The notes below the pieces were generated by a model that worked only from the letters and a program-made list of their open reading frames with translations, was not told the DNA's origin and made no database searches. This document shows, one piece after another, positions 8,243-25,051 of a DNA stretch of 64,000 nt; positions within the stretch are counted from its first letter, which is position 1; each line of letters starts with the position of its first letter. The DNA lies in the NCBI RefSeq assembly GCF_000425385.1, contig NZ_KE384356.1:442380-506379 (forward strand), in the 5' to 3' direction. The DNA is from Pseudoduganella violaceinigra DSM 15887. GTDB lineage: Bacteria > Pseudomonadota > Gammaproteobacteria > Burkholderiales > Burkholderiaceae_D. Made by a program: the position numbers and the translations under genes.

Positions 8243-8254
8243 CTTCGCCTCTCC

Positions 8255-9862: not shown

Positions 9863-9877
9863 TGTCGTCCTCTTCTC

Positions 9878-10306
9878 TTATTCTGGAAATTCGCCGTCGA
9901 CGTAAAACCAGCGCAAGCCTCCCTCGCCCGGTTCGCGCAGGAAGCGGCTCAGCTCATGCAGGCGCTGGCCGCGGCCATTGACACGCAGGCGGGCCACAAA
10001 TTCGACGAAATCCTCGTTCGGCTGGGCCTCTGCTTTACGTTGACGTAAACGTAAAGCAGATTTTACCTCAAGTCCCAGCCATTGGAGCTTTTCATCCTGC
10101 TGAATAATTGGCTCGCTGGGGCGGGTGGTTTCATGCCAGGTTGACAAGAGATATGGCTCATTCCGCAGCGCATAGGCGGCATAGCGCGAGCGCATCAGCT
10201 GTTCAGCCGTCGCCGGCAGGGCTTTACCCTCGATGAAGGGGCCGCAGCACGTCTCAAAAGAAGGACCGCCGCAAGGGCAGCCGACAGGGGTCTTGGATTT
10301 GGACAT
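9878..10306 (-). CDS. ychJ: YchJ-like SEC-C motif protein (UPF0225)
   Basis: 142 aa from the ATG at 10306 (MSKSKTPVGCPCGG). The open frame extends farther upstream, but that part overlaps kptA and lacks homology, so the later start is preferred. The N-terminal CPCGGPSFETCCGPFI is a metal-binding SEC-C-like cysteine cluster. RSRYAAYALRNEPYLLSTWH and the C-terminal LHELSRFLRE...WFYVDG are typical of the family. Its function is unknown. The segment SALRLRQRKAEAQP is encoded by a near-perfect palindrome (10029-10060) resembling the LiuR sites in this window. Confidence 0.85.
   Translation of the reverse strand: MSKSKTPVGCPCGGPSFETCCGPFIEGKALPATAEQLMRSRYAAYALRNEPYLLSTWHETTRPSEPIIQQDEKLQWLGLEVKSALRLRQRKAEAQPNEDFVEFVARLRVNGRGQRLHELSRFLREPGEGGLRWFYVDGEFPE
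10029..10060. promoter_or_regulatory. Predicted LiuR operator inside ychJ, upstream of liuB
   Basis: Two perfect 13-nt arms, tctgctttacgtt (10029-10041) and aacgtaaagcaga (10048-10060), are separated by gacgta. The 22-bp core 10034-10055 aligns on the minus strand with the site next to liuA (36746-36767): both contain ACGTTTACGT followed by a pyrimidine and AACGT. It lies about 170 bp upstream of the liuB start, inside the ychJ coding sequence. MerR-family LiuR proteins are known to bind ACGT-rich palindromes at liu promoters. Binding here is inferred from the alignment. Confidence 0.75.
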
Positions 10307-10351
10307 CCCGCCATTATCCGCCATATCGGCGAATGCGATAAAATGTGCCAA

Positions 10352-10882
10352 ATGCATAACAACAGTACCAGCAAGTTCCTCAGCCTGATCTTGCGTCATC
10401 AACCAGAAGAAATCGGGCTGACCCTGGACCGCAATGGCTGGGCCTCCATCGACGAATTGATCGCCCTGTCCAATGCCAGGGGAAGCAGATTAAGCCGCAC
10501 CCTGCTCGAAACCATCGTCGCGGAATGCGAGAAGCAGCGTTTTGCCATCAGCGAGGACGGCACGAAGATCAGGGCCAACCAGGGCCATTCGGTCGCCATC
10601 GAGCTGGAATTGGCGCCGCAGACGCCGCCCGAACAGCTGTATCACGGAACCGCCACGCGCTTCCTCGACTCCATCAGGGAAAATGGACTGCACGCTGCCT
10701 CGCGCCAGCATGTGCATCTTTCACTCGAGCTCGCGACCGCTGAAAAAGTGGGCGGCCGGCATGGCAAGCCGGCCATCCTGACCGTGGAATCGGGGCGGAT
10801 GGCACGCGACGGCCATCTCTTTTACCTGTCGGAAAACGGCGTCTGGCTGACCGACACTGTTCCGGCGCACTACCTCCGCTAG
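10352..10882 (+). CDS. kptA: RNA 2'-phosphotransferase, Tpt1/KptA family
   Basis: 176 aa from the ATG at 10352 (MHNNSTSKFLSLILRHQPEE); an in-frame ATG at 10343 would add three residues. SKFLSLILRHQPEEIGLTLD, GWASIDELI, LYHGT and HVHLS are the conserved KptA segments, including the catalytic Arg-His-Arg-type region. In yeast Tpt1 removes the splice-junction 2'-phosphate of tRNA using NAD+. The bacterial substrate is unsettled because bacteria lack that splicing pathway; ADP-ribosylation of RNA ends or repair of 2'-phosphorylated RNA are possibilities from the family. It is divergent from ychJ and its stop abuts the stop of the next gene. Confidence 0.93.
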   Translation: MHNNSTSKFLSLILRHQPEEIGLTLDRNGWASIDELIALSNARGSRLSRTLLETIVAECEKQRFAISEDGTKIRANQGHSVAIELELAPQTPPEQLYHGTATRFLDSIRENGLHAASRQHVHLSLELATAEKVGGRHGKPAILTVESGRMARDGHLFYLSENGVWLTDTVPAHYLR

Positions 10883-11335
10883 TCAGCACGCCTCCAGGCT
10901 GGCTTCGATATTGGCGATATAGTGGTCCATGAAATAGCCGCCGCGCTCCTGGAGCAGGCGCATGTAGTCGCGCAGCGTCTGCCGCTGTTGCGCATCGAGA
11001 CGGGCGATGACTGCTCGCCCATGCTCCTTGCGCGCCAGCGCGGACAGTGTGCCGTCGACAACCACGTCCAAGGTGTCAGGATCTTCAATGGCGGCAATCA
11101 GGTAGGCTGGCAGGTAATAGGCAAATGCCTCATCGGTAAACACCGACGTCGCGAACTCGAGGCCGCGCAGGGCGCGCGCGCTATGCCCTTCCCAGGATTT
11201 GCCTGCAAAATAGGCAGAGACGCCCTCATCATCATGGGTAGGCCCGGATATATTGTGTGCCGCGGGCGGCGTTGCGTCGGCCCAGGCCAGGCGGATCCGC
11301 GCGATCAGTTCTTCTTGGTTAATAGGCGGAGGCAT
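10883..11335 (-). CDS. DUF6714-like hypothetical protein
   Basis: 150 aa, cytoplasmic, no signal or membrane segment. The central part (RALRGLEFATSVFTDEAFAYYLPAYLIAAIEDPD) resembles the DUF6714 family, small proteins of unknown function; this is recognition by pattern only. Its ATG overlaps the TAA stop of the upstream dadA-type gene by 1 nt (minus strand), so the two are translationally coupled. It ends directly against the convergent kptA. No function is proposed. Confidence 0.7.
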   Translation of the reverse strand: MPPPINQEELIARIRLAWADATPPAAHNISGPTHDDEGVSAYFAGKSWEGHSARALRGLEFATSVFTDEAFAYYLPAYLIAAIEDPDTLDVVVDGTLSALARKEHGRAVIARLDAQQRQTLRDYMRLLQERGGYFMDHYIANIEASLEAC

Positions 11336-12588
11336 TATTTACGATACGCCAGGCAATCGAGGGCGAATGGCGGCTCATTGCCGCGCATCATGGTGGCCAG
11401 CAGGCTTGCGCTGCCGCAGGCAAAGGTGAAGCCCAGCGGGCCGTGCCCGACGTTCAGCCACAGGTTGCGGTAAGGCGTGGGGCCGATGATGGGCGCGCTG
11501 TTTGGCGTGGCCGGACGCAGGCCGGCCCAGGCTTCGGCCTCCTCGTAATCGGCGGCATTCGGCATCGATTCGCGCGCCAGGCGTTTCAGGCTGGCGACGC
11601 GGCGCCGGTCGATGCTGTTGTTTTCCCCCACCAGGTCGACCATGGCGGAGACGCGCAAGTCGTTGCCGATGCGCGCGAACAGGGTTTTGCGCTCGAAGTC
11701 CGTCACGCTGATATTGGGCGCCACATGCTCGCTGCGGATCGGCGCGGTCAGGCTGTAGCCTTTTAGCGGGTAGATCGGCAGGTCGAGATTGGCGGTGGCC
11801 GCCAGGTCGCGGCTCTTGATGCCGGCCGCCAGCACGTAATGGTCGGCCGAGACCCAGCCGGCGTCGGTCTCGATCGCCGTCACCTTGCCTTTTTCGACAA
11901 AGATGGTGCGCGCCGCCGTGTGCATGCAGCGCTCGAAGCGCGGGTGGGCATAGATGCGCTTTTCCAGCGCCAGGCAGAAAGCGTAGCAGTCGGCCACCGC
12001 CTCGCCGGGGTTAAAAATGCCGCCCGCCAGCTTCGGCGCCAGGTCGATCAGGGCCGGTTCAATGCGGGCCGCATCCCTGCCCCACAGGACGGCGCGGTTC
12101 CTGTCGGTATCGTGCTTGTCGAGGACGGCCTTGAACGCTTCCTCGCTGCGGTACACCACCAGTTTGCCGGCGTTGCGCCAGCCAAATTCGGACAGCGGCA
12201 GGTTGATTTCCAGCTGCGCCAGCGACTGGCGGCTGAGCTCGCCGAGCTCCAGCAGCTTGGCCGTGGTGCGGGCATTGGCTTCGGCATTGCAGTTGCGCAG
12301 GAATTGCGCCATCCAGCGCCACTGGCGGTAGTCGGCTTCCGGACGAAAGCGCAGCGGGCCATCCTTTTCGAACAGCCATTCCAGGGCCTTCTTCGGTACC
12401 CCGACATCGGCCAAGGGGGAAACGTAGCGATAGCTCAGCTGGCCACCGTTGCGGTAACTGGCCGCGCTGGCAACAGTAGGGGCGCGTTCGAGCAGCGTCA
12501 CCCGGAAGCCTGCTTCGAGCAGCCACCATGCCGACGCCAGGCCGACTACGCCGCCGCCAATCACCACCACTTGCCGTCTATTCGACAT
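11335..12588 (-). CDS. dadA: D-amino-acid dehydrogenase-like FAD oxidoreductase
   Basis: 417 aa from ATG 12588, chosen over an earlier in-frame codon because GGAG lies 6 nt upstream. The Rossmann FAD motif VVVIGGGVVGLASAWWLLEAG is at the N-terminus, and the C-terminal NLWLNVGHGPLGFTFACGS is typical of DadA. The family deaminates D-amino acids, chiefly D-alanine, at the inner face of the membrane, passing electrons to quinones. It is divergent from the gntR-murQ peptidoglycan island, whose dipeptidase and carboxypeptidase would release D-alanine, so D-Ala disposal is a plausible role. No alanine racemase gene accompanies it. Confidence 0.8.
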   Translation of the reverse strand: MSNRRQVVVIGGGVVGLASAWWLLEAGFRVTLLERAPTVASAASYRNGGQLSYRYVSPLADVGVPKKALEWLFEKDGPLRFRPEADYRQWRWMAQFLRNCNAEANARTTAKLLELGELSRQSLAQLEINLPLSEFGWRNAGKLVVYRSEEAFKAVLDKHDTDRNRAVLWGRDAARIEPALIDLAPKLAGGIFNPGEAVADCYAFCLALEKRIYAHPRFERCMHTAARTIFVEKGKVTAIETDAGWVSADHYVLAAGIKSRDLAATANLDLPIYPLKGYSLTAPIRSEHVAPNISVTDFERKTLFARIGNDLRVSAMVDLVGENNSIDRRRVASLKRLARESMPNAADYEEAEAWAGLRPATPNSAPIIGPTPYRNLWLNVGHGPLGFTFACGSASLLATMMRGNEPPFALDCLAYRK

Positions 12589-12874
12589 TCCATCTCCGCG
12601 TTCCACCACGACCTGAGCTTAAAGCACATGTTGCTCGCTGGCAAACCAATCGTATTGTAGCGGTCATGTGCCCTGATGATGAAGTCGAGGCGACTGCCGT
12701 TGCCCGGTCCGCTCTTCAAGTCTAGGGCGAACGTGGGAATCAGGCCACAAGCTTTGCTGCGTTCCGCAGGCGTGCCAGCCGCCTGTAAACCCCGCCATTG
12801 ATGCCAAAAGCGAAATGAAAAGAGCAGCGGGATTTGGCTTTCGCTATTACACTAGCGCTTATAGGAGAAATGTA

Positions 12875-13615
12875 ATGAGCCTCGCCGGCGCTGAATTCAA
12901 ACCAGACCAACAAGATAATTCGCCGCTGTACATGCAGATTGCCCGCAAGTTGAGCGACGATGTCCGAAATGGACGCTACCAGGTCGACCAGGCGCTGCCC
13001 TCCGAACGCACGCTGTCCGAATTACTGAATGTCTCGCGCGTCACGGCGCGCAAGGCCATCGACCAATTGGTTGACCAGGGGCTGGTAGTGCGCCGCCGCG
13101 GATCCGGCAATTACATCGCCCCCCGCATCGAACAACCGCTGTCGAACCTCACCAGCTTTTCCGAACAACTGTCGCAGCGCGGCTACAAACCCGGCTCGCG
13201 CTGGCTCAAGCGCGGCATCGTCGCCGCCACGGCCGATGAGCAGCTGAGCCTGGGCCTCTCGCCCAACACCCGCGTGGCGCGCCTGGAACGCCTGCGCCTG
13301 GCGGACGATGTGGTGATGGCTTACGAGGTGTCGGTACTGCCGCAAACCATTGTGGCCAATCCGGAACTGATCGGCGATTCGCTGTACCAATACCTGGAAT
13401 CGGTCGGCAAGGGACCGTCGCGCGCGCTGCAGCACATCCGCGCCATGAACGCGTCGGCCGAACTGGCGCGCCAGCTGGAAGTGCCGGAAGGCCAGGCCGT
13501 CCTCTTCATCACCCGCATCGCCTACCTGGAGTCGGGCCAGGCGATCGAGCTCACGCATTCCTACTGCCGCAGCGATCACTACGATTTCGTGGCCGAGATG
13601 CGCCGCGCCGCATAG
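12875..13615 (+). CDS. GntR/HutC-family regulator with UTRA domain
   Basis: 246 aa from the ATG at 12875, preceded by AGGAG at 12863-12867; an in-frame upstream codon at 12815 lacks a ribosome site and is rejected. N-terminal winged helix (about residues 20-85: SERTLSELLNVSRVTARKAI, then VVRRRGSGNYI) is followed by a UTRA ligand domain with the typical ending LTHSYCRSDHYDF. UTRA regulators of this type often sense phosphorylated amino sugars (for example NagR/YvoA binding GlcN-6-P). As the first gene of the island before murQ, it is the likely local regulator, perhaps responding to MurNAc-6-P or GlcNAc-6-P; that is inference. Confidence 0.88.
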   Translation: MSLAGAEFKPDQQDNSPLYMQIARKLSDDVRNGRYQVDQALPSERTLSELLNVSRVTARKAIDQLVDQGLVVRRRGSGNYIAPRIEQPLSNLTSFSEQLSQRGYKPGSRWLKRGIVAATADEQLSLGLSPNTRVARLERLRLADDVVMAYEVSVLPQTIVANPELIGDSLYQYLESVGKGPSRALQHIRAMNASAELARQLEVPEGQAVLFITRIAYLESGQAIELTHSYCRSDHYDFVAEMRRAA

Positions 13616-13620
13616 CACAG

Positions 13621-13638
13621 CGGCCCGCTCCTGGGCCG
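13621..13638. terminator. Short GC hairpin between gntR and murQ
   Basis: Perfect 6-bp stem cggccc / gggccg with loop gctcct, 6 nt after the gntR stop. There is no T-tract, so it may be a weak attenuator or simply an mRNA hairpin. The region after it, up to the murQ start at 13668, contains a tacact box that could serve a separate murQ promoter. Confidence 0.35.
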
Positions 13639-13667
13639 GTCCGGCGATTTGGCATTACACTGCTTGC

Positions 13668-14549
13668 ATGCTGAAGACCGAAACGCCCAGTTCCCAGCAT
13701 CGCGAGCTGGACCAATATCCCACAGAGCAGCTGGTCGCTGCTTTTGCCGATGACCAGCTGGGCGCGGTACACGCCGTGCGCGCCGCCGTGCCCGCCATTT
13801 CGCGGGCGATCGATGCCGCCGTGCCCCGCATCGAAGCCGGCGGGCGCCTGCTGTATGCCGGCGCCGGCACCTCCGGGCGGCTTGGCGTACTCGACAGCGT
13901 TGAACTCTACCCCACCTTCTCCTGGCCGCCCGAACGCGCCGTCGCCATCATCGCCGGCGGGGCGCAAGCCATGTTCCACGCGGTGGAAGGCGCGGAAGAC
14001 GACCGCGCCAGCGGCGCGCGCGATCTGCTGGCACTGGCGCCCGGCGCCAACGACGTGCTGCTGGCGCTGGCCGCCTCCGGCACCACGCCCTATGTGCTGG
14101 GTGCACTGGAAGCCGCGCGCGGCGCCGGGGCGCTGACCATCGGTATCGCCAACAATCCAGACGCGCCGGTGGCGCGCGAGGCGGAATGCGGCATCGTCCT
14201 CGACACCGGCAATGAAATCATTTCCGGCAGCACGCGCTTGAAGGCGGGCACCTCGCAGAAGATCGTGCTGAACACGATTTCCAGCGCAATCATGGTGCGC
14301 TTGAACAAGGTTTATGGAAACTTGATGGTAGACTTGAAGCCGACCAATGCGAAGCTGTTTGCGCGCACGGTGCGGCTCACCATGCACGCCACCGGCGCCG
14401 ACGAAGCGGCAGCCCGCATAGCGCTGGAACAGTGCGGCTTCCATGTCAAAGTGGCGGTGGTCGCCCTGTTGAAGAAAACCACGGTGCAGCAAGCGGGAGA
14501 CTTGCTGGACCAGGCCAGGGGCAGCGTGCGCGGCGCACTCGCCATTTGA
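13668..14549 (+). CDS. murQ: N-acetylmuramic acid 6-phosphate etherase
   Basis: 293 aa, close to E. coli MurQ (298 aa). SIS-fold segments are plain: GAGTSGRLGVLDSVELYPTF, then AGGAQAMFHAVEGAEDD (with the catalytic glutamate region), ASGTTPYVLGAL, and STRLKAGTSQKIVLN followed by NKVYGNLMVDL. The enzyme removes the D-lactyl ether of MurNAc-6-P, giving GlcNAc-6-P and D-lactate in the cytoplasm. In E. coli the substrate comes from the PTS transporter MurP or from AnmK. Here neither is nearby; a BadF/NagK-type kinase lies four genes downstream. Confidence 0.95.
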   Translation: MLKTETPSSQHRELDQYPTEQLVAAFADDQLGAVHAVRAAVPAISRAIDAAVPRIEAGGRLLYAGAGTSGRLGVLDSVELYPTFSWPPERAVAIIAGGAQAMFHAVEGAEDDRASGARDLLALAPGANDVLLALAASGTTPYVLGALEAARGAGALTIGIANNPDAPVAREAECGIVLDTGNEIISGSTRLKAGTSQKIVLNTISSAIMVRLNKVYGNLMVDLKPTNAKLFARTVRLTMHATGADEAAARIALEQCGFHVKVAVVALLKKTTVQQAGDLLDQARGSVRGALAI

Positions 14550-14583
14550 CCCGCACTGCGTCCGGCCGACCAGAAAGGACGTA

Positions 14584-15849
14584 ATGGATCGAGCGCAGCA
14601 ACGCAGCCCGTGGGGCTGGGTCCCGACACTCTATTTCAACCAAGGCATTCCCTACTTTGCGGTCACGGCGCTGTCCACCGCGATGTACAAGGATTTGGGC
14701 ATTTCCAATGCGGACATGGCGTTTTACACCGCCTGGCTGTACATACCGTGGGTGATCAAGCCCTTATGGTCGCCCCTGATCGACATGTTCGGCACCAAGC
14801 GCTCCTGGGTCGCCATCCTGCAGATGCTGCTCGGCGTGTCGCTGGCCGCCGTCGCATTCACGCTGCCGCTATCGAATTTCTTCCAGCTTAGCCTGGGCGT
14901 CATGTGGCTGATGGCGTTCAGCTCCGCCACCCACGATATCGCGGCCGACGGCTTCTACATGCTTGGCCTGCGGCAGAAGCAGCAGGCGGAATTCGTCGGC
15001 GTACGCGGAACCTTCTATCGCGCCGCCAATGTGGCATGCAACGGCGGGATGCTGTTCCTGGCCGGGGAGGTCATCAAGTATTACGGCAATCCGCGACTGG
15101 CGTGGGGGATCGCCTTCGGCGCGGCCGGCGCCGTCTTCCTGGCGCTGGCGGTCTACCACTTCTTCGCGCTGCCCAAACCGGCGCAGGACAAGCCCGTGGC
15201 CCATACTTCGGCGCCGATGCGTGAATTCTTCGCGACGTTCGCCGCCTTCTTCCGCAAGGAAGGCATTGTGGTGAGCGTGCTGTTCCTTCTGCTGTTCCGC
15301 CTCGGCGAGTCGCAACTGCTGAAAATGGTGGTGCCGTTCCTGAAAGATCCGCTGGAAAAAGGCGGCCTTGGCTTGAGCACCGCGGACGTCGGCATCGCCT
15401 ATGGCACGGTCGGCATCATCGGCCTGATTCTCGGCGGGCTGGCGGGCGGCTGGCTGATTTCCCGTTTCGGCCTGAAGCGCTGCCTGTGGCCTTTTGCGAT
15501 CGCAATCCATATTCCGGACCTGATTTTCGTCTACCTGTCCCAGTTCCAGCCGCAGGACTTCATCTGGATTTCCAGCTGCCTGGCGGTGGAGCAGTTTGGC
15601 TACGGCCTGGGCTTCACCTCCTTCATGATGTATATGATCATGGTCAGCCAGGGCGAACACAAGACCGCCCATTACTCGATCTGCACTGGCTTCATGGCGT
15701 TGGGCATGATGCTGCCGCAGATGGTCAGCGGCAAGATGCAGGAGATTCTCGGCTACCAGCATTTCTTCATTTATGCCTGCACCGCAACCGTGCCGGCCTT
15801 CATCATGACGGCGCTGCTCAAGATAGACGCGGAGTTCGGGCGCGAATAG
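14584..15849 (+). CDS. ampG: AmpG-like MFS permease (muropeptide/amino-sugar importer)
   Basis: 421 aa with about 12 hydrophobic membrane segments. The N-terminal GWVPTLYFNQGIPYFAVTALS, WLYIPWVIKPLWSPLIDMFG and SSATHDIAADGFYM segments match the AmpG-type branch of the major facilitator superfamily. E. coli AmpG (491 aa) imports GlcNAc-anhydroMurNAc and its peptides; this protein lacks the extra C-terminal helices. GAAAGGAC precedes the ATG. Position between murQ and a periplasmic glycosidase supports a role in importing cell-wall fragments; the exact cargo cannot be read from the sequence. Confidence 0.82.
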   Translation: MDRAQQRSPWGWVPTLYFNQGIPYFAVTALSTAMYKDLGISNADMAFYTAWLYIPWVIKPLWSPLIDMFGTKRSWVAILQMLLGVSLAAVAFTLPLSNFFQLSLGVMWLMAFSSATHDIAADGFYMLGLRQKQQAEFVGVRGTFYRAANVACNGGMLFLAGEVIKYYGNPRLAWGIAFGAAGAVFLALAVYHFFALPKPAQDKPVAHTSAPMREFFATFAAFFRKEGIVVSVLFLLLFRLGESQLLKMVVPFLKDPLEKGGLGLSTADVGIAYGTVGIIGLILGGLAGGWLISRFGLKRCLWPFAIAIHIPDLIFVYLSQFQPQDFIWISSCLAVEQFGYGLGFTSFMMYMIMVSQGEHKTAHYSICTGFMALGMMLPQMVSGKMQEILGYQHFFIYACTATVPAFIMTALLKIDAEFGRE

Positions 15850-15885
15850 GTAGAATACGGCTCCTGCCGATGTGAGGATTTGGTT

Positions 15886-17550
15886 TTGTCTTTTAATGCG
15901 AAAAGGCGGCTGTCGATAGCCGCAGCCGCGGCCGGCGTGGCCGCATTGATGGGAGCTTGCTCCTCGACGCCGATTGGTCCGGCCGCCAGCGAAGGCGCTG
16001 CCTCGCCCGCCGGCGGTACGGGCGGAAACGCCCCCGCCCCGGCGCCGGTCGCCGCCGCCAGCCCCGTGCAGCCGGCGATCACTGGCGAACAGCCGCCCGC
16101 CGCGCCGCGCGAATTCCGCGCCGCCTGGGTGTCGACTGTCGCCAACATCGACTGGCCAAGCCGCAGCAACCTGCCGCCGGCGCGCCAGCAGGCGGAAGCC
16201 ATCGCCATCCTGGATCGCGCCAAGTCCCTGCAACTGAACGCCATTGTGCTGCAGGTACGCCCCAGCGCCGACGCCATTTACCCGTCCAAACTGGAGCCCT
16301 GGTCCGAATTCCTGACCGGCCAGCAAGGCAAGGCGCCGGAGCCGGCCTGGGACCCGTTGGCCTTCTGGATCAGCCAGGCCCACTTGCGCGGCCTGGAACT
16401 GCATGCCTGGTTCAACCCTTACCGCGCGCGCCACTCCGCCGCCCGCACGCCGAACGCGCGTGAGCATATTGCCAACACCAAGCCGCAGGTCGTGCGCCAG
16501 TACGGCAAGTTCCTGTGGATGGACCCGGGCGAGGAAGCCGCGGCCCAACAGACCCTGGACGTCATCCTGGATGTGGTGCGCCGCTACGATATCGACGGCG
16601 TCCACATCGACGATTACTTCTACCCCTACCCGATCGAGGCGCCCGGCGCCAACGGCGGCGAGGCGGCGCTGGACGCGCCATCGAACGGCAGCAAGCCGGA
16701 ACTGGACTTCCCCGACAACCCGCCATTCCTGCGCTACCTGCAGGGCGGCGGCACCCTGGACCGCGCCAACTGGCGCCGCCAGAACGTCAACCAGCTGATC
16801 GAGGCCATCTACAGCGGCATCCGCAAGGAAAAAGCCTGGGTGCGCTTCGGCATCAGTCCCTTCGGCATCGGACGCCCGGACCGCCGCCCGCCCGGCATCC
16901 AGGGTTTCAGCCAATACGACAAGCTGTACGCGGACGCCGAACTGTGGCTGCAGAACGGCTGGCTGGACTATCTGGCGCCGCAGCTGTACTGGCCGATCGC
17001 GCAGCCGCCGCAGGCTTTCCCTGTGCTGCTCGACTACTGGCTGGGGCAGAACAAGCGCGGCCGCCATATCTGGCCGGGCCTGTACACCAGCCGCATCGAC
17101 GACAGCGCCAAATCGTTTGCGCCGGAGGAAATCGTGCAACAGGTCGACCTGATGCGCAGCCGCGGCAACGTGAACGGCCATATCCATTTCAGCATCGCCG
17201 CCCTGATGCAGAACCGCAAGGGCGTCGCCGACCAGCTGAAATCCACCCGCTACCTGGGCCCGGCCCTGATACCGGCTTCGCCATGGCTGGGCAGCGAGGC
17301 GCCGCCGGCACCGAGCGTCTCGGTCAAGCGCCACGCCAGCGGCCTGGCGCTCATGCTCGGCAATGCCACCCGCGCCACCCATCTTGCCATCTGGGCACGC
17401 TATGGCGAGGAGTGGCGTTTCAACGTGGTGCCAGCCAACCGCAGCGAAGTGGTACTGACCGACGACAACGGCGTGCCGGCCCGCAGCGTGGTGGTTTCCG
17501 CCGTCGACCGCCTTGGCAACGAAAGCCCGAGGGTTTCCGCCGCTCTGTAG
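15886..17550 (+). CDS. Glycosyl hydrolase-like 10 lipoprotein (DigH/YddW type)
   Basis: 554 aa from a TTG at 15886; another TTG at 15880 is in frame but too close to the gagg ribosome site (15874-15877). There is no ATG in a suitable place. A lipoprotein signal ends at ALMGACSS, followed by an Ala/Pro/Gly-rich linker (to about residue 70). The GHL10 domain follows (EFRAAWVSTVANIDWPS, ELHAWFNPYRARHSA, IDGVHIDDYFYPYP). E. coli DigH (YddW), the best-known member, is an outer-membrane lipoprotein that cuts glycan strands stripped of stem peptides. The C-terminal ~90 residues form a probable beta-sandwich. Its neighbours make the same role here likely. Confidence 0.85.
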   Translation: MSFNAKRRLSIAAAAAGVAALMGACSSTPIGPAASEGAASPAGGTGGNAPAPAPVAAASPVQPAITGEQPPAAPREFRAAWVSTVANIDWPSRSNLPPARQQAEAIAILDRAKSLQLNAIVLQVRPSADAIYPSKLEPWSEFLTGQQGKAPEPAWDPLAFWISQAHLRGLELHAWFNPYRARHSAARTPNAREHIANTKPQVVRQYGKFLWMDPGEEAAAQQTLDVILDVVRRYDIDGVHIDDYFYPYPIEAPGANGGEAALDAPSNGSKPELDFPDNPPFLRYLQGGGTLDRANWRRQNVNQLIEAIYSGIRKEKAWVRFGISPFGIGRPDRRPPGIQGFSQYDKLYADAELWLQNGWLDYLAPQLYWPIAQPPQAFPVLLDYWLGQNKRGRHIWPGLYTSRIDDSAKSFAPEEIVQQVDLMRSRGNVNGHIHFSIAALMQNRKGVADQLKSTRYLGPALIPASPWLGSEAPPAPSVSVKRHASGLALMLGNATRATHLAIWARYGEEWRFNVVPANRSEVVLTDDNGVPARSVVVSAVDRLGNESPRVSAAL

Positions 17551-17620
17551 CGGCCGAAAATGCGTGCTGCTCAGCCTTTCGTGTTAAGTTGCAGTGGTAT
17601 TACCGTACACTCGACAGATC

Positions 17621-18538
17621 ATGGGCAAACCTGACACCGATCGTACCTTGGGCCTGGGAATTGATGCTGGCGGCACGGAAACGCGTTGGGCGTTGTCCGA
17701 CCCGGCAGGCGAGATCGTGGCCGAAGGCACAGTGGCCGGGCTTTCGGCCCTGCAAATGGCCAAGCCGGCCGGCCGCGAGCAAGTGCACGCCACCTTCAGC
17801 CGTCTGGCGACCGATGTGCTGGAAGCCGGCGCGCCCCTGCGCATCTGCGCCGGGCTGACCGGCTTCGGCGGCGACGGCAATGTGCTGGTGGACTGGCTGT
17901 CCACCTTGCTGGGGGTGCGCCTGGACGCCATCACCCTGTGCAACGATATCGAAGTGGCCTATCTGGACGCGTTCGAGCCCGGCCAGGGCTACCTGGTCTA
18001 CGCCGGTACCGGCTCCATCGCCGCGTATATCGACGAGCAGGGCGAATTCCACCGCGCCGGCGGCCGCGGCGTCACGCTGGACGATGCCGGCGGCGGCTTC
18101 TGGATTGCCCGGGAAGCAATGCGCCGCATTTGGCGCCTGGAGGACGAAACGCCCGGCGCATGGCAGGAATCGCCGATGGCCCTGGCCGTGTTCGACCATG
18201 TCGGCGGCAGCGACTGGAGCTACTCGCGCAACTTCATCTACACCCAGGAGCGCGGCGAAATCGGCAAGCTGGCCCTGGCTGTCGCCATGAGCGCCGGCGC
18301 CGACCCGGCCGCCCGCCATATTCTGCTGCAGGCCGGACGCGAACTGGCCCGCCTTGGGCTGGCGCTGGTGACGCGCTTCGGCGCGCGGCCGCTGGTACTG
18401 TCCGGCCGCGCCGCCGAACTGCACCCCCTGGTCTTCGAAGCCATGCGCGCGGAGTTGCCGCCTGGATTGAATTTGCAAAAACGCACTGCCAAGCCGCATC
18501 ATGCGGCGGCACGGATGGCCGCCCGGCCACGCAACTGA
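17621..18538 (+). CDS. BadF/BadG/NagK-type amino-sugar kinase (possible MurNAc/GlcNAc kinase)
   Basis: 305 aa from ATG 17621 (MGKPDTDRTLGLGIDAGGTE). The ASKHA phosphate-binding loops are visible: GIDAGGTETRWALSD, LTGFGGDGN, and YAGTGSIAAYI followed by GRGVTLDDAGGGFWIAREA. This is the BadF/BadG/BcrA ATPase family, which also contains eukaryotic GlcNAc kinase and clostridial MurK, a kinase that makes MurNAc-6-P and GlcNAc-6-P. With MurQ in the same gene row, MurNAc-6-P formation is the most economical role. It is not AnmK (different family), so anhydro-sugars would not be its expected substrate. Substrate is inference. Confidence 0.8.
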   Translation: MGKPDTDRTLGLGIDAGGTETRWALSDPAGEIVAEGTVAGLSALQMAKPAGREQVHATFSRLATDVLEAGAPLRICAGLTGFGGDGNVLVDWLSTLLGVRLDAITLCNDIEVAYLDAFEPGQGYLVYAGTGSIAAYIDEQGEFHRAGGRGVTLDDAGGGFWIAREAMRRIWRLEDETPGAWQESPMALAVFDHVGGSDWSYSRNFIYTQERGEIGKLALAVAMSAGADPAARHILLQAGRELARLGLALVTRFGARPLVLSGRAAELHPLVFEAMRAELPPGLNLQKRTAKPHHAAARMAARPRN

Positions 18539-18552
18539 AACTCAAGAGAACA

Positions 18553-19344
18553 ATGAAGAAACTCCTGCTTGCCTCCCTGATCGCCTTGCTGACCGGCTGC
18601 GCCACCCAGCTGCCCCACATCGACCATTCGCTGACGTCCAAGGGACAGAGCAGCCGCGTGCGTTTCGTCGTGCTCCATTACACGGTGTCCGACCTGCCGC
18701 GCTCGATCATGCTGCTCACCGAGAAGGAAGTCAGTGCGCACTACCTGATCACCGACGAGGAGCAGCCGCGCGTGTATGCCCTGGTCGATGAAAACCGCGC
18801 CGCCTGGCATGCCGGGCTAAGCAGCTGGAAGGGGTATACCGCGCTGAACAGCAGCTCGATCGGCATCGAAATCGTCAATCCCGGCTTCAAGGACGAGGCG
18901 GACGGCCGCCACTGGTATGGCTTTAGCGAGCGCCAGGTGGAACAGCTGGTGGCCCTGCTCAAGCAGATCAAGGAGCGCCACCAGATCGCTCCGGAGAACT
19001 TCCTCGGCCACGCCGACGTCGCCCCGCAGCGCAAGCAGGACCCCGGCCCAATGTTCCCCTGGAAGCGCCTGGCCGATGAAGGCCTGATCGCCTGGCCGGA
19101 TGCCAATGCCGTGGCGGCGGTGCGCCCGCAGTACGAGGCCCGCTTGCCCGACATCGCCTGGTTCCAGCAAAAGCTGGCGCTGCACGGCTATGCCACGCCG
19201 CAAACCGGCGTGCTCGATCCGGAAACCCATAATGTGCTGGTGGCCTTCCAGGCCAAATACCGCAACAGCAAGTGGGACGGGGTGCCGGACGCCGAATCCG
19301 CCGCCATCCTCGATGTGCTGACCGCGCCCAAGCCCAAGCAATGA
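18553..19344 (+). CDS. amiD: AmiD-like N-acetylmuramoyl-L-alanine amidase lipoprotein
   Basis: 263 aa from ATG 18553. The lipobox LLTGC gives lipid attachment at C16. An Amidase_2 domain follows: H42 (VVLHYT), H153 (GHADVAP) and D163 (KQDPGP) are the expected zinc-site positions, and the SIGIEIVNPG stretch is conserved. The C-terminal ~70 residues form a peptidoglycan-binding helical domain (FQQKLALHGY...LVAFQAKYR). E. coli AmiD is an outer-membrane amidase that strips peptides from MurNAc and anhydroMurNAc. Its stop overlaps the ATG of the next gene, so it is coupled to the VanX-like dipeptidase. Confidence 0.9.
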   Translation: MKKLLLASLIALLTGCATQLPHIDHSLTSKGQSSRVRFVVLHYTVSDLPRSIMLLTEKEVSAHYLITDEEQPRVYALVDENRAAWHAGLSSWKGYTALNSSSIGIEIVNPGFKDEADGRHWYGFSERQVEQLVALLKQIKERHQIAPENFLGHADVAPQRKQDPGPMFPWKRLADEGLIAWPDANAVAAVRPQYEARLPDIAWFQQKLALHGYATPQTGVLDPETHNVLVAFQAKYRNSKWDGVPDAESAAILDVLTAPKPKQ

Positions 19345-19952
19345 GCAACACCCTGCGCAGCGAAGACGTGCCCGGCCACCCTGATTTCCGCCACCTGGAC
19401 AGCATCGCCGGCATCGCGGTCGACCTGCGCTACGCCGGCGCCGGCAATTTCGTCGGGCGCGACCTGTATTCGCCGCTGGATTGTGCCTGGCTGCACCGCG
19501 AAGCCGCGGCCGCCATCGAGAAGGTGGTTGCCTGGCTGGCGCAGCGCGCACCGGGCCACCAAGTGCTGCTGCTCGATGCCCTGCGCCCGCACCGCGTGCA
19601 GGAACAGCTCTGGGACGCGCTGGCCGGCACCAGCCTGCAGATGTACCTGGCGCCGCCGGAGCGCGGTTCGATCCATTCCTTCGGCATGGCGGTCGATATC
19701 ACCCTCCTCGACCCGTCGGGGCGGGAACTGGATATGGGCACCGGCTTCGATGACATGACGGAGCTGTCGCATCCCGCGCTCGAGGCGCGCCATCTGGCGA
19801 GCGGAGCATTGAGCGCGGCGCAGGCGGCCAACCGCCAACTGCTGCGCGACGCCATGTTCCAGGCGGGCTTCGCCGGCATCAACAGCGAATGGTGGCATTT
19901 TGATTGCGGCGACCGTGTGCTGGTGCGCCGCGACTATACGCGCGTCCTGTAG
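19341..19952 (+). CDS. D-alanyl-D-alanine dipeptidase, VanX/DdpX family
   Basis: 203 aa; the ATG overlaps the upstream TGA (ATGA). The zinc motif SIHSFGMAVD gives H112 and D119, and EWWHFD supplies the catalytic E183 and H186, as in VanX. No signal peptide is evident, so it should act in the cytoplasm, cleaving D-Ala-D-Ala. In this recycling setting it would recover D-Ala for re-use or energy (as for E. coli DdpX) rather than confer glycopeptide resistance: there is no vanA/vanH-type ligase or dehydrogenase here. Confidence 0.9.
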   Translation: MSNTLRSEDVPGHPDFRHLDSIAGIAVDLRYAGAGNFVGRDLYSPLDCAWLHREAAAAIEKVVAWLAQRAPGHQVLLLDALRPHRVQEQLWDALAGTSLQMYLAPPERGSIHSFGMAVDITLLDPSGRELDMGTGFDDMTELSHPALEARHLASGALSAAQAANRQLLRDAMFQAGFAGINSEWWHFDCGDRVLVRRDYTRVL

Positions 19953-19967
19953 CCAGGAATCGGCTGC

Positions 19968-20468
19968 CTACATGCGGAATTCGGACAGCTTCCAGTCGCA
20001 GAAGCCGCTACGGATAAAGACCAGCGCGACCTTTTCGTTGCGCACGATGTAGCGGTTGACGCCCTCGCGCTCCGTTACCCATTTCGGCTTATTTTCTTCA
20101 GTGGCCGGGGTGCTGCTATCCCGCGCGGTCTCGTCGCTGCGCTGCTCACGGCGCTTCTTCGCGAAATCCCCATGTTCCAGCATGAACATGACCGACTCCG
20201 GGCGCACCAGGGCGTCCACCATGACACCGCCAAGCAGCCGTCCGAGGCCGCCGAGCGCGCCGTCGTCCTGCTTGGCTGCCATGCCATCCTTCATGTTTTC
20301 CCGCAGCGCCGGAAAGTCCACGTGGCTGTTGAACGCCGCCACGTCATGCTCGCGCACCGCTTCCTTCATCTGGTGCACCACGAGCAGCGGTGACCAATAC
20401 CAATACGCCGCCACCGCGGCGGCCACGGCCAGCGCCGCCGCTGGAATACGCTTACCTTGCTTTGCCAT
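19968..20468 (-). CDS. DUF2939 membrane-anchored protein
   Basis: 166 aa. A single N-terminal hydrophobic helix (about residues 9-26, ending WYWSPLLVV) anchors a soluble domain outside the cytoplasmic membrane. The sequence pattern (YWSPLLVVHQMKEAVREHD, VDFPALRENMKDGM) is that of DUF2939, a family of unknown function. It converges with the VanX-like gene and lies 16 nt downstream of dacB, so it is probably the last gene of the spmAB-dacB operon. No function is proposed. Confidence 0.8.
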   Translation of the reverse strand: MAKQGKRIPAAALAVAAAVAAYWYWSPLLVVHQMKEAVREHDVAAFNSHVDFPALRENMKDGMAAKQDDGALGGLGRLLGGVMVDALVRPESVMFMLEHGDFAKKRREQRSDETARDSSTPATEENKPKWVTEREGVNRYIVRNEKVALVFIRSGFCDWKLSEFRM

Positions 20469-20484
20469 TTGCTGCTTTCTTTCC

Positions 20485-21993
20485 TTAAGGTTGACGGGAT
20501 ACCCAGTCGATCACGCCGTCGGCGATCGCGCGCCCGTTGCCGCCGCCGGCGCGCTCATGGTTGACCATGACGACCACGATGCATTGCTGCCCGTTGGCGT
20601 CGGGAACGTAGCCGGCGACTGCGGCGACGTTCTTCAGCGTGCCGGTCTTGGCCCGGGCGCGCATGGCGGCCGGGCTGTTCTTCAAGCGGCGCTTCATATT
20701 GCCGTCGATGGCGGCAATCGGCAGGCTGGCCAGGAATTCCGGCGCCCATAGCGATTCCTGCGCGGCTTTCAACAGGCCGCCCATCTGGGCCGGGCTGAAG
20801 CGCTCCACGCGCGACAGGCCCGAGCCGTTGTCGAACACCATCCCGGTATCGTCGATGCCGTGGCCGCGCAGCCAGTTGCGCATGACGAGCTCGGCGCGCG
20901 CGTTGGTGCTCATGGCCGCCGGGCCGGCCTCGCCGCCGCCGGGAAGTGCCATGGGCACCGGCTCCTCCAGCGGGTGGCTGCCCAGGTCGGGATCGGATTG
21001 CAGGCTGCCCAGGCTGAGGAAAATCGAACGGGCCAGGCCGTTGTCGGACTGCTTGTTCGTGTCGCGTACGATCTCGGGCAAGAAGCGGCTTACATGCTCG
21101 GCTAGCAGGGTCGAAGGCGCACCGTTGAAGGCACGCGCCTGCTCGGCCGAGGCCTCGAGCGTGGCGCCGACGAAGCGTCCGCCCAGGCGTTCCCACGTCG
21201 CACGGAACAGACGGTCGGCGTAATCGGTCCGATCGAGCACGTTGACCACATTGGTCTTGCTGCAGTTGCGCGGGAAAGTTCCCTTCAGCACCAACGTCAG
21301 GTTCGTGCCTTCGCGGACATATTCGGGAATCTTCCAGCCCTCTTCCCAGCGCCCGCAATCGGCGTTGACCAGCTGCATATCGGAGCGCACGCGCACGCCG
21401 GCCAGTTCGGGTAGGACGCTGGCCTTGATCGACTTGGCGTCGGAAGTGATATCGAGCGTCTGCAGATTCATGTTCAGCAGCAGCGCATCGGGAATCAGGT
21501 TGTAATACGCTTCGGGCGACTCGTCGAAGGGCGGCGCACCGGCATCGGCACGGGCGGGCTGCCACAACTGGCGGTCCAGCACCAGATTGCCTTCGATTCG
21601 ATGGATGCCTTTGGTGCGCAGCTTTTCCAGCATGTGCGTGAAGGCGTCGGCAGTCAGGTCGCCGTCGGCGCCGCCGCGCAGCACCAGGTCGCCGCGCAGC
21701 ACGCCCGCCGCGACGGTCCCCGTGGTGCGCAGCTCGGTGCGGCCGCGGAACTGCGGGCCGAGCATGTCCAGCCCCACCATGGTGGTGAACAGCTTCATGA
21801 TGGACGCGGGCGTGAAGGTGCGCGACGACTCGTTCGACACCAGAACCTGGTCGCCGCGCAGCACCAGGGCCCCGATGGCGTTTTCAGGGATGCCTTTTTC
21901 GGCGGCCAGGCGGGCGACCGGTTCCGGCAATGCGGCGTGCGCGGAAGCGCCGAGGGCGGCGAACAGGGTAGCGAGGAGCAGGCGTCGCATCAA
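20485..21993 (-). CDS. dacB: D-alanyl-D-alanine carboxypeptidase/endopeptidase (PBP4)
   Basis: 502 aa with a cleavable signal peptide (ends near ASAHA, residue 20). All three penicillin-binding motifs are present: S64-I-M-K67 (TPASIMKLFT), the SDN triad in NKQSDNGLARS, and K449-T-G (AKTGTLKNVAAV). The long insert between SxxK and SxN is typical of the S13 peptidase family (PBP4). It trims the terminal D-Ala and cuts D-Ala-mDAP cross-links in the periplasm. It starts 6 nt after the stop of the SpmAB-like gene, so the two are co-transcribed; the opposite-strand neighbours are recycling genes. Confidence 0.95.
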   Translation of the reverse strand: MMRRLLLATLFAALGASAHAALPEPVARLAAEKGIPENAIGALVLRGDQVLVSNESSRTFTPASIMKLFTTMVGLDMLGPQFRGRTELRTTGTVAAGVLRGDLVLRGGADGDLTADAFTHMLEKLRTKGIHRIEGNLVLDRQLWQPARADAGAPPFDESPEAYYNLIPDALLLNMNLQTLDITSDAKSIKASVLPELAGVRVRSDMQLVNADCGRWEEGWKIPEYVREGTNLTLVLKGTFPRNCSKTNVVNVLDRTDYADRLFRATWERLGGRFVGATLEASAEQARAFNGAPSTLLAEHVSRFLPEIVRDTNKQSDNGLARSIFLSLGSLQSDPDLGSHPLEEPVPMALPGGGEAGPAAMSTNARAELVMRNWLRGHGIDDTGMVFDNGSGLSRVERFSPAQMGGLLKAAQESLWAPEFLASLPIAAIDGNMKRRLKNSPAAMRARAKTGTLKNVAAVAGYVPDANGQQCIVVVMVNHERAGGGNGRAIADGVIDWVSRQP

Positions 21994-21999
21994 GAATCC

Positions 22000-23238
22000 T
22001 TAACCGAAGAAGACATAGGCAACGGCGATTGCCGCCAGCACACCGGCGAAGTCCGCGATCAGGCCGCAGGAAATCGCATAGCGCGTTTTGCGGATGCCGA
22101 CCGAGCCGAAATACAGGGCCACGATGTAGAAGGTCGTGTCGGCCGAGCCCTGGAACATGCAGGCCAGGCGGCCCACAAAGGAATCCGGACCGTAGGTTTT
22201 CATGGCATCGATCATCAGTGCGCGCGAGCCGCTGCCGCTGAAGGGGCGCATCAGGGCGGTCGGCAGCGACGGCACGAAATCGGTCGCCAGGCCCAGCTTG
22301 GCCAGCAGCCAGCCGGCGCCGTCCATGATCATGCCCAGCACGCCCGCATTGCGGACCACGCTGATGGCCACCAGCATGCCCACCAGGTAGGGGATCACGG
22401 TGAGGGAGGTCTGGATGCCGCCTTTGGCGCCTTCGATAAAGGCCTCGTAGACATTGACCTTCTTGCGCAGCGCGCCCAGCAGGAAGGCGGAGATGATGGT
22501 GATCAGGATCAGGTTGCTCGCCACCTTGGACACCACTTCAATTTCGGCGCGGCTCAGGACGTGCGTGAAGTAGTAGATGATGCCGCCGATCGCCGCCGTC
22601 ATGCCGCCCAGCCAGGCCAGCACCACCTTGTCGAACAGCTTGATGCGCTGGCGGATCGAGACGGCGATGATGCCGGCCAGCGTCGCCACATAGGTCGCGA
22701 TGATGCACGGAATGAAAATATCCGATGGATCGGCTGCGCCAAGGATGGCGCGCTGCGCCATGATCGCCAGCGGGATCAGGGTCAGCCCCGAGGTGTGCAG
22801 CACCAGGAACATGATCTGCGCATTGCTGGCGGTATCCTTGTCCGGGTTCAGCGTTTGCAGGCTTTCCATGGCTTTCAGGCCGAAGGGCGTGGCGGCATTG
22901 TCCAGTCCCAGCAGGTTGGCCGAGAAATTCATCACCATATGGCCGGTGGCCGGGTGGTCTTTCGGCACGTCCGGGAAAATGCGCGAAAAGAAAGGGGAAA
23001 TGAGCTTGGCCAGCCAGCCGATGGCGCCGGCTTTTTCGCCCACGTTCATCAGGCCCAGCCAGAGCGTCATGATGCCCGCCAGCGGCAGGGCGATTTCCAT
23101 CACGGCCGCCTTGGCGGAATCGAACGTGCCATCAATGACCTTCTTGAAGATCTCGGTGTCGCCCGTGAACAGCCATTGCAGGATGGCGGCGGCAAAGCCG
23201 ACGAGGAAAAACCCGGACCAGATGTAATTGAGGGACAT
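22000..23238 (-). CDS. Fused SpmA/SpmB nucleoside-recognition (Gate) domain membrane protein
   Basis: 412 aa from the ATG at 23238 (MSLNYIWSGFFLVGFAAAIL); the frame is open further upstream but that part is basic, low-complexity and lacks homology. Two Gate domains are seen: an N-terminal SpmA-like half (LPLAGIMTLWLGLMNVGEKAGAI, LLGLDNAATPFGLKAM) and a C-terminal SpmB-like half (VIPYLVGMLVAISVVRNAG). About ten membrane segments are predicted by eye. SpmA/SpmB affect spore-core dehydration in Bacillus; their role in non-sporulating bacteria is unknown. It is directly coupled to dacB. Confidence 0.85.
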   Translation of the reverse strand: MSLNYIWSGFFLVGFAAAILQWLFTGDTEIFKKVIDGTFDSAKAAVMEIALPLAGIMTLWLGLMNVGEKAGAIGWLAKLISPFFSRIFPDVPKDHPATGHMVMNFSANLLGLDNAATPFGLKAMESLQTLNPDKDTASNAQIMFLVLHTSGLTLIPLAIMAQRAILGAADPSDIFIPCIIATYVATLAGIIAVSIRQRIKLFDKVVLAWLGGMTAAIGGIIYYFTHVLSRAEIEVVSKVASNLILITIISAFLLGALRKKVNVYEAFIEGAKGGIQTSLTVIPYLVGMLVAISVVRNAGVLGMIMDGAGWLLAKLGLATDFVPSLPTALMRPFSGSGSRALMIDAMKTYGPDSFVGRLACMFQGSADTTFYIVALYFGSVGIRKTRYAISCGLIADFAGVLAAIAVAYVFFG

Positions 23239-23362
23239 GGATGTAGTGTGATGGCTGTTTCGCAGCGAAAGTATAGGGCCAGCCGGTGAAAGTATGCGTT
23301 GCGCACGGGTAAAAAAGTTATAAGCTGGCGTATCGCCGCCCCCTGGCTTATGCTCCTGCCGC

Positions 23363-25012: not shown

Positions 25013-25051
25013 CGCGCTGTCCACCTGCCGGCTTCGGCGTAGAATGGGGCG

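Follow-up and report, generated by a model that had tools for sequence, protein, structure and literature searches.

We analysed a 64-kb window, the whole stretch of Pseudoduganella violaceinigra DSM 15887 DNA under study, in which seven plus-strand genes between 12875 and 19952 lie between two minus-strand neighbours. The features are listed below with model scores and, where given, model cut-offs.

11335..12609, minus strand: DadA-type D-amino acid dehydrogenase, divergent neighbour (NF001933 422.6 bits, cut-off 383)
12846..12853, plus strand: ATTACACT word 5′ of gntR, promoter- or operator-like candidate (word count in window)
12875..13615 (alternative ATG 12815), plus strand: GntR-UTRA transcription regulator (PF07702, UTRA, 134 bits; PF00392, GntR, 66.1 bits)
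13654..13661, plus strand: ATTACACT word 5′ of murQ (word count in window)
13668..14549, plus strand: MurQ, N-acetylmuramic acid 6-phosphate etherase (NF003915 368.7, cut-off 168; TIGR00274 306.7, cut-off 302)
14584..15849, plus strand: AmpG-family MFS permease (TIGR00901 181.9 bits, cut-off 350)
15880..17550, plus strand: GHL10 (DigH/Cwp19-type) lipoprotein, predicted glycan-cleaving (PF02638 187.3 bits, cut-off 27.9; lipobox-like start)
17621..18538 (alternative GTG 17594), plus strand: BadF/BcrA-type sugar kinase, putative MurNAc 6-kinase (PF01869 51.9 bits, cut-off 31.5)
18553..19344, plus strand: AmiD/AmpD-type N-acetylmuramoyl-L-alanine amidase with PG-binding domain (PF01510, Amidase_2, 102 bits; PF01471, PG_binding_1, 27.8 bits)
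19341..19952, plus strand: M15 D-Ala-D-Ala dipeptidase, DdpX/VanX type (PF01427 110.5 bits, cut-off 27)
20485..21993, minus strand: PBP4-type D-Ala-D-Ala carboxypeptidase, convergent neighbour (TIGR00666 196.4 bits, cut-off 107.8)

All seven frames are open in the ORF reading of the window and the family scans agree, which bears out the original prediction of seven same-strand genes. The intergenic gaps are 52 bp (gntR-murQ), 34 bp (murQ-permease), 30 bp (permease-GHL10), 70 bp (GHL10-kinase; 43 bp if the GTG start of the kinase is used) and 14 bp (kinase-amidase), and the amidase and dipeptidase genes overlap by 4 bp. Neither a terminator-like site on the plus strand nor, in a promoter scan, a consensus promoter was found within 12550-20500. 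The G+C content, calculated in 2-kb windows, ranges from 0.617 to 0.675 across 8000-26000 without a break; a horizontally acquired island was thus rejected, and "island", as the locus had been called, can mean an operon only. Repeats in the locus region are weak coding matches.

By sequence, the product of the second gene is MurQ, which exceeds both curated cut-offs; in the family sample described below, 14 of 40 MurQ-bearing genomes reach the 302 bits of TIGR00274 and the others score at least 279 bits. The permease belongs to the AmpG family as proposed, its closest PDB structures are AmpG, and it is the best-scoring of three relatives in the genome, but it reaches no AmpG cut-off (TIGR00901, 181.9 versus 350); it may work like AmpG despite this score. 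M15 D-Ala-D-Ala dipeptidases carry the metal motifs SxHxxGxAxD and ExxH, both of which are matched in the translated dipeptidase (SIHSFGMAVD and EWWH). Its description as VanX-like therefore holds for the M15 domain and motifs but not for the DdpX-type model NF007557, which it misses (145.3, cut-off 176). The amidase has a lipobox (LTGC) in its translated sequence. Together with the predicted GHL10 enzyme, this AmiD-type amidase fits the module.

The GHL10 protein matches the Cwp19 structure 5oq2 with 252 bits. One study attributes to the GHL10 enzyme Cwp19 the generation of reducing ends at peptide-free MurNAc and judges it a lytic transglycosylase (PMC6016235); DigH of E. coli has a reported role in daughter cell separation and may be a glucosaminidase rather than a muramidase (PMC12288456). 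Either a transglycosylase or a glucosaminidase activity would weaken the reducing-MurNAc step proposed below. Both DigH and Cwp19 share the GHL10 domain and are known from division and autolysis, whereas the GHL10 gene here sits in a sugar-catabolic operon.

The GntR protein is probably the controller of the module. On either strand of the whole window, ATTACACT occurs in just two copies, at 12846 and 13654. Its longer form, TATTACACT, lies 5′ of 33 of 70 gntR genes, 35 of 77 murQ genes and none of 81 kinase genes (window counted in each case), and a CATRA-N7-TYATG dyad is enriched in relatives 5′ of gntR, murQ, kinase and dadA (0.637 versus 0.032 per kb; gntR 6/70, murQ 2/77, kinase 14/81, dadA 18/45), with all these counts drawn from regions that share descent and hence not independent. 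The sole copy of the dyad in the window is at 15624, within the permease gene, and we draw no conclusion from the dyad. An operator common to the nag locus was rejected, as TATTACACT is in none of the genome's own nag, amgK-murU, ubiG-mupP and anmK stretches.

The seven-gene set is found again in Massilia, Duganella, Pseudoduganella and Rugamonas. Within the best 80 of 345 relatives, whose loci were all picked by the kinase and 10 of which are shorter than 16.5 kb, we identified genes for the amidase in 80, GHL10 protein in 79, permease in 78, MurQ in 76, GntR and dipeptidase in 69 each, PBP4-type enzyme in 68 and DadA-type enzyme in 45. This recurrence over the best 80 of 345 relatives indicates that the grouping is more than chance, and the conservation upholds the earlier idea of a single peptidoglycan module that combines MurQ with a BadF/NagK-type kinase outside the PTS. 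A NagX-like gene is inserted in 28 of these best 80 of 345 loci; the window copy lacks the LysR and NagX-like genes that many relatives have. The kinase of one locus (L103) contains an in-frame insertion of about 180 residues, and its frame is open on translation.

Among 145 genomes sampled from the family, the kinase was identified in 41, MurQ in 40 and both in 39, with kinase orthologues called at E < 1e-80 (next best 3e-16); a looser cut of E 1e-10, including distant relatives, matches 54 of the 145. A second BadF relative is present in at least 16 of the 41 genomes that have the kinase, and MurQ occurs in 9 of the 44 sampled genera. A second MurQ in genome G045, located among tblastn matches above 45 bits, stands with AnmK, which suggests that MurQ pairs with an enzyme making MurNAc-6-P.

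The predicted model of the kinase (pLDDT 91.8) has the MurK of C. acetobutylicum (CaMurK) as its top fold match (Z 28.9, rmsd 3.0, 289 residues, 24% identity), with human NagK and the S. tokodaii hexokinase scoring within 2 Z units of it. Foldseek ranked the S. tokodaii hexokinase first, which also led the sequence profile comparison with solved structures (78.6 bits; CaMurK 62.6; MurK of Tannerella forsythia, TfMurK, 21.4). Structure rankings are not decisive for kinase specificity. The NagK model NF046058 (Shewanella SO3507 type) was missed, with a score of 54.6 against a cut-off of 370.

Numbered from the GTG start and the conserved Asp, the pocket residues are Gly147-Gly148-Arg149 and Asn108; to accommodate the lactyl group, the pocket should lack a bulky residue at TfMurK 133-135 and a blocking one at 94. 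CaMurK, likewise of the PF01869 family, also has a Gly-Gly pair in the lactyl pocket and an Asn that precedes the catalytic Asp, but differs in its third pocket residue (Trp for Arg149), in its low identity and in its Gram-positive host. The authors of the TfMurK study state that Asn at the position matching Asn108 blocks MurNAc; CaMurK reportedly phosphorylates both GlcNAc and MurNAc. In an alignment of the window with 25 relatives, taken from the 40 of 46 loci with kinase coverage of at least 85%, the Asn108 column reads N in 21 of 26 rows, S in three, T in one and D in one. The pocket residues do not settle the kinase substrate. Our best guess is a MurNAc 6-kinase, because a NagK-like kinase is encoded elsewhere in the genome.

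The NagK-like kinase is part of a separate nag locus, which also contains genes for GntR, NagA (244 bits, cut-off 225.65), NagB-II, a sugar ABC system, a NagZ-like GH3 enzyme (208.4, cut-off 207) and a second AmpG-family permease; the NagK-like kinase scores 178.8 against the NagK cut-off of 370, and its top PDB relative is 1zc6, a probable NagK (280.6 bits). The original prediction named a complete AmgK/MurU pathway elsewhere as a finding that would refute it and proposed a genome search for anmK, amgK and murU. AnmK, an AmgK homologue and MurU were all found, and this refutation largely applies. MurU passes its cut-off (313.8 bits, cut-off 250), the AmgK homologue adjoins it (392.2 bits, under the cut-off of 550) and a MupP candidate lies after ubiG (202.7 bits, under the cut-off of 359), the AmgK and MupP models being the best ones for these two sub-cut-off proteins. 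The amgK and murU frames are open and adjacent. MurU was identified in 38 of 40 MurQ-bearing family genomes; the corresponding figure for a sample across the class is 3 of 11, and of the eight genomes there scored without MurU, three were named as matchless and five were merely absent from the match table. A MupP homologue is present in 39 and AnmK in all 40 of the MurQ-bearing family genomes; the MurQ-bearing genome G027 yielded no match for MurU or MupP.

A 2017 paper assigns to Beta- and Gammaproteobacteria one of the two, MurQ or AmgK-MurU, but not both. The coexistence of MurQ and AmgK/MurU genes, a pairing said to be absent in these classes, is the interesting result. Among the literature matches listed, none dealt with MurQ in Oxalobacteraceae or with MurQ plus AmgK/MurU within one Betaproteobacterium. 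Figure 8 of PMC5371409 covers MurU-pathway proteins over 1,773 taxa, with MurQ included in the methods, and may already show cases of MurQ with MurU.

A MurK-like kinase with MurQ had been put forward as a third, PTS-independent Gram-negative variant, which is not supported as worded: BadF-type MurK, MurQ and AmpG are reported to be co-transcribed in Gram-negative T. forsythia (AmpG-MurT-MurK-MurQ operon, Tanf_08345-08385), a transcription unit of an organism without PTS uptake for which a MurNAc salvage route is also claimed, and whose AmpG imports peptide-free disaccharides (PMC7670621). The present locus similarly has a BadF kinase, MurQ and an AmpG-family permease in one operon predicted from gene order and gaps. 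T. forsythia differs as a MurNAc auxotroph of the Bacteroidota that has a GppX two-component regulator and whose operon has MurT, YbbC, glycosyltransferases and LytB; the genes as listed there do not include the GHL10, AmiD and dipeptidase genes found here, and TfMurK is only a distant relative of the kinase. The E. coli AnmK/MurP-MurQ route shares AnmK and the MurQ step, but E. coli lacks AmgK/MurU, whereas this genome has both AmgK/MurU genes and a non-PTS kinase beside MurQ. All four homologues of the Pseudomonas AnmK-MupP-AmgK-MurU route are present, together with MurQ, which Pseudomonas lacks.

We propose, with about even confidence, that the operon is a catabolic scavenging module for muramic acid beside an intact anabolic salvage route. 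The AmiD-type amidase would remove stem peptides, and the GHL10 lipoprotein would cleave the denuded strands, hydrolytically at least in part, to GlcNAc-MurNAc with an ordinary reducing end. This disaccharide could be taken in by the AmpG-family permease and split by the NagZ-like enzyme of the nag locus, where NagK would take the GlcNAc. The operon kinase would then form MurNAc-6-P, which MurQ would convert to GlcNAc-6-P and D-lactate before NagA and NagB-II finish the pathway, and D-Ala-D-Ala could be disposed of by the dipeptidase and the neighbouring DadA, which could oxidise D-Ala. MurNAc without the anhydro ring is not known to be a substrate of AnmK, which would explain a separate kinase despite AnmK. 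Catabolism by MurQ and reuse through MupP, AmgK and MurU would diverge at MurNAc-6-P, and MupP would reverse the kinase, resulting in a futile cycle unless regulated.

Gene content and spacing, conservation, the kinase-MurQ co-occurrence in 39 genomes, the nag locus, the MurQ-AnmK pair of G045 and the NagX-like insertions all speak for this proposal. The reducing ends left by Cwp19 and the disaccharide uptake by T. forsythia AmpG would support it by analogy, and the predicted CaMurK fold match (Z 28.9) also favours it. Against it stand the hexokinase as the closest relative by sequence and Foldseek, Asn108, the sub-cut-off permease and dipeptidase scores, the MupP futile cycle, the missing LysR and NagX-like genes and the activity readings of Cwp19 and DigH.

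A broader and more tentative suggestion is that Oxalobacteraceae hold two opposed muramic acid pathways per cell with MurNAc-6-P as the switch: transglycosylase products might pass through AnmK, MupP, AmgK and MurU to the wall, and denuded glycans cut by GHL10 might yield reducing-end MurNAc for the 6-kinase, MurQ and carbon metabolism under GntR. If so, the rule that Beta- and Gammaproteobacteria have one route or the other, which served in finding MupP, would fail across a whole lineage, and AmiD with GHL10 would constitute a second, non-anhydro recycling channel. In a family with both routes, the choice between burning and reusing muramic acid becomes testable, and one can ask if MurU-route fosfomycin tolerance needs low MurQ. 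GHL10 enzymes, whose products are disputed, would gain a metabolic context and a prediction, namely that denuded strands are hydrolysed to reducing-end MurNAc.

It is possible, if somewhat improbable, that the operon kinase is instead a GlcNAc or dual GlcNAc/MurNAc kinase for the GlcNAc half of disaccharides, and that AnmK, using anhMurNAc, supplies most of the MurNAc-6-P for MurQ, as it does in E. coli. The universal AnmK of MurQ-bearing family genomes, this one included, the near-equal fold matches, the Asn at position 108, a residue that typical glucose or GlcNAc kinases share, and the reported dual activity of CaMurK are consistent with such a role; however, the nag locus has its own NagK-like kinase, second BadF relatives occur among the kinase genomes, the operon kinase scores far below the NagK cut-off, and it tracks MurQ rather than nag genes.

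We regard it as unlikely that the cell uses the module to turn over its own wall, for instance at division, with MurQ draining surplus MurNAc-6-P and foreign peptidoglycan not being the target. The daughter cell separation role of E. coli DigH (PMC12288456), the AmiD and PBP4 types as ordinary wall enzymes and the separate AmpG-family permease of the nag locus would agree with it, but a set of sugar-catabolic and D-Ala-D-Ala-cleaving enzymes with its own regulator would suggest nutrient use, and the restriction of MurQ to 9 of 44 sampled genera argues that the module is not core wall upkeep. Least probable by far is that MurQ has replaced the MurU route, leaving AmgK, MurU and MupP genes as relics or in other roles. 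The sub-cut-off AmgK and MupP scores and genome G027 are in its favour; it conflicts with a MurU above its cut-off, with open, adjacent amgK and murU frames, and with the near-universal MurU and MupP homologues of MurQ-bearing family genomes. Replacement of AmgK/MurU by MurK/MurQ as gene sets was rejected, since both are in this genome and MurU accompanies MurQ in 38 of 40 family genomes; the module stands beside the AmgK/MurU route, not in place of it.

All seven genes of the original prediction were identified by family models as a plus-strand set, spaced 14 to 70 bp apart save for a single 4-bp overlap.

12875-19952, plus strand: module encoding a GntR-UTRA regulator, MurQ, an AmpG-family permease, a GHL10 protein, a BadF/BcrA-type kinase, an AmiD/AmpD-type amidase and an M15 dipeptidase
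22000-23538, minus strand: Gate-domain (nucleoside recognition) membrane protein, beyond the PBP4-type gene

MurQ scored above its family cut-offs; the permease belongs to the AmpG family, yet falls under the AmpG cut-offs of the profile models. The amidase carries a peptidoglycan-binding domain. A divergent DadA-type dehydrogenase gene flanks the module on the left and a convergent PBP4-type carboxypeptidase gene on the right, the latter separated from the dipeptidase gene by one small frame. The word ATTACACT precedes gntR and murQ, with no further copy on either strand of the window, and offers a hint of regulation of the module, the sole pointer to it here.

Beyond gene content and order, the analysis established the conservation of the module, the co-occurrence of its genes and the presence of both catabolic and anabolic gene sets in one genome (6.1 Mb, 41 contigs). 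By sequence, the kinase has its five best named relatives (86-91% identity in the best segment) in Duganella, Massilia and Pseudoduganella, all Oxalobacteraceae as judged from the Pseudoduganella lineage. Among the best 80 of 345 named relatives, the loci contain the amidase (80/80), GHL10 (79/80), permease (78/80), murQ (76/80), gntR and dipeptidase (69/80 each), PBP4 (68/80), Gate protein (56/80) and dadA (45/80), and 31 of the 80 keep the complete order dadA (minus), gntR, murQ, mfs, ghl10, kin, amiD, vanX, pbp4 (minus), gate (minus). Extra genes for a NagX-like membrane protein (28/80) and, by tblastn, a LysR regulator (44/80) also occur in these best 80; in the loci read, they occupy the permease-GHL10 and amidase-dipeptidase intervals. 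Neither was found in the window. Four loci of one genus, g33 (L105, L106, L126 and L130), are rearranged, with kinase and amidase together, permease and dipeptidase on the opposite strand and no match to GHL10; in L105, the locus read among the four, the intervening genes encode a LysR regulator, a protein of beta-lactamase fold, a peptide-binding protein and one resembling AstE/AspA.

In the 145-genome family sample (family as drawn by the search tool), MurQ was found in 40 genomes (14 above the curated cut-off, all at least 279 bits) and a clear orthologue of the island kinase in 41, with both present in 39. MurQ occurs without the kinase in G107, where murQ has the amidase gene in its vicinity, along with genes for a peptide-binding protein and a protein resembling AstE/AspA. 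Conversely, G040 and G106 lack MurQ and retain permease, GHL10, kinase and amidase; the kinase gene of G040 (L103, 7250-8750; locus without gntR and murQ) carries an in-frame low-complexity insertion of about 180 residues. Genome G045 has the full module and, elsewhere, a second murQ in the order gntR-anmK-murQ (L101, 4419-7250). Because of this set and the kinase/MurQ pairing, a steady partner of MurQ is an enzyme that makes, or might make, MurNAc-6-P.

The island kinase reaches 54.6 bits with the NagK model, below its cut-off of 370. On a different contig, a nag locus encodes a NagK-like kinase (178.8 bits, same cut-off) together with GntR, NagA, NagB-II, a sugar ABC system, a NagZ-like GH3 and one more permease of the AmpG family; an XrtA/PEP-CTERM-associated ATPase (289.6 of 324.5 bits) lies near this locus (L083, contig C1, 5099-6733). 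The structure predicted for the island kinase, at pLDDT 91.8, best matched Clostridium acetobutylicum MurK (CaMurK) by VIA-align (Z 28.9, rmsd 3.0, 289 aligned), followed by human NagK (Z 27.8), Sulfolobus tokodaii hexokinase (27.0) and, lower, Tannerella forsythia MurK (TfMurK, 24.8); the S. tokodaii enzyme ranks first by Foldseek and by sequence profile. We compared the pocket with TfMurK (PMC10465942), numbering island residues from the GTG start and aligning via the conserved Asp. TfMurK S133-P134-L135 corresponds to G147-G148-R149, and small pocket residues admit the lactyl group (PMC10465942). Since the paralogue K1058 has an arginine nearby (PMC10465942), R149, predicted near the lactyl carboxylate, is suggestive of MurNAc use; the same Gly-Gly-Arg is found in S. 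tokodaii hexokinase. Asn108 precedes catalytic Asp109 where TfMurK has Thr94, and Asn at this position was argued to exclude MurNAc (PMC10465942); CaMurK, a known kinase of MurNAc and GlcNAc, has Asn there as well. Genomic context favours MurNAc as the substrate, with pocket residues compatible with either answer.

The original prediction took an AmgK/MurU pathway elsewhere in the genome as evidence against it, and in gene content this pathway is largely present: MurU (about 313.7 bits, cut-off 250), an adjoining AmgK homologue (392.2 bits, cut-off 550), AnmK (435.3 bits) and, after ubiG, a MupP candidate whose best NCBIfam match is the MupP model (202.7 bits, cut-off 359). Proteobacteria, particularly Beta- and Gammaproteobacteria, were described as having MurQ or AmgK-MurU, not both, which was the basis for finding MupP (PMC5371407). 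A class-wide sample of 370 genomes, of which the host alone of those listed is from the family, has 12 genomes with MurQ (E up to 1e-40) and 325 with MurU (E up to 1e-50). The either/or rule is a strong trend across the class, yet fails in the family of Pseudoduganella, because MurU is present class-wide in 3/11 MurQ genomes versus 321/358 MurQ-less genomes (host excluded), but within the family in 38/40 versus 103/105. AnmK is found in 40/40 MurQ family genomes and a MupP homologue (E 1.3e-83 or better) in 39/40; MurU is missing from only two of the 40, the drafts G019 and G027, and MupP was not found in G027 either.

The kinase with MurQ had been proposed as a third, PTS-independent variant for a Gram-negative. 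A precedent exists in T. forsythia, whose BadF-type MurNAc kinase occurs with MurQ and AmpG, and which is also said to possess a salvage route (PMC5790795, PMC5388701, PMC7670621). The Pseudoduganella module differs from that operon in phylum, in its GHL10/AmiD/dipeptidase set and GntR regulator, and in that MurQ stands, in Betaproteobacteria, beside the genes of the anabolic route. Among the papers listed in the literature searches, none was on this coexistence; a published figure may show such cases.

Every reaction step of the module we infer. The GHL10 enzyme Cwp19 was judged a lytic transglycosylase, but those of its products that had a reducing end bore peptide-free MurNAc; its authors inferred that peptide absence disturbs the usual mechanism (PMC6016235). 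DigH, which degrades denuded glycans, is termed a hydrolase of glucosaminidase or muramidase type (PMC12288456), and T. forsythia AmpG imports GlcNAc-MurNAc as well as GlcNAc-anhMurNAc (PMC7670621). If muramidase-like, the GHL10 enzyme acting with the amidase would release GlcNAc-MurNAc whose reducing end is free. AnmK is not known to use this product, a gap that a MurNAc 6-kinase beside MurQ would close. MupP would reverse the kinase step, and regulation would therefore have to matter. Elsewhere in the genome (L134, contig C4, 1414-4025), another AmpG-family permease adjoins a glycosidase-like frame that, by eye, resembles a GH1 beta-glucosidase.
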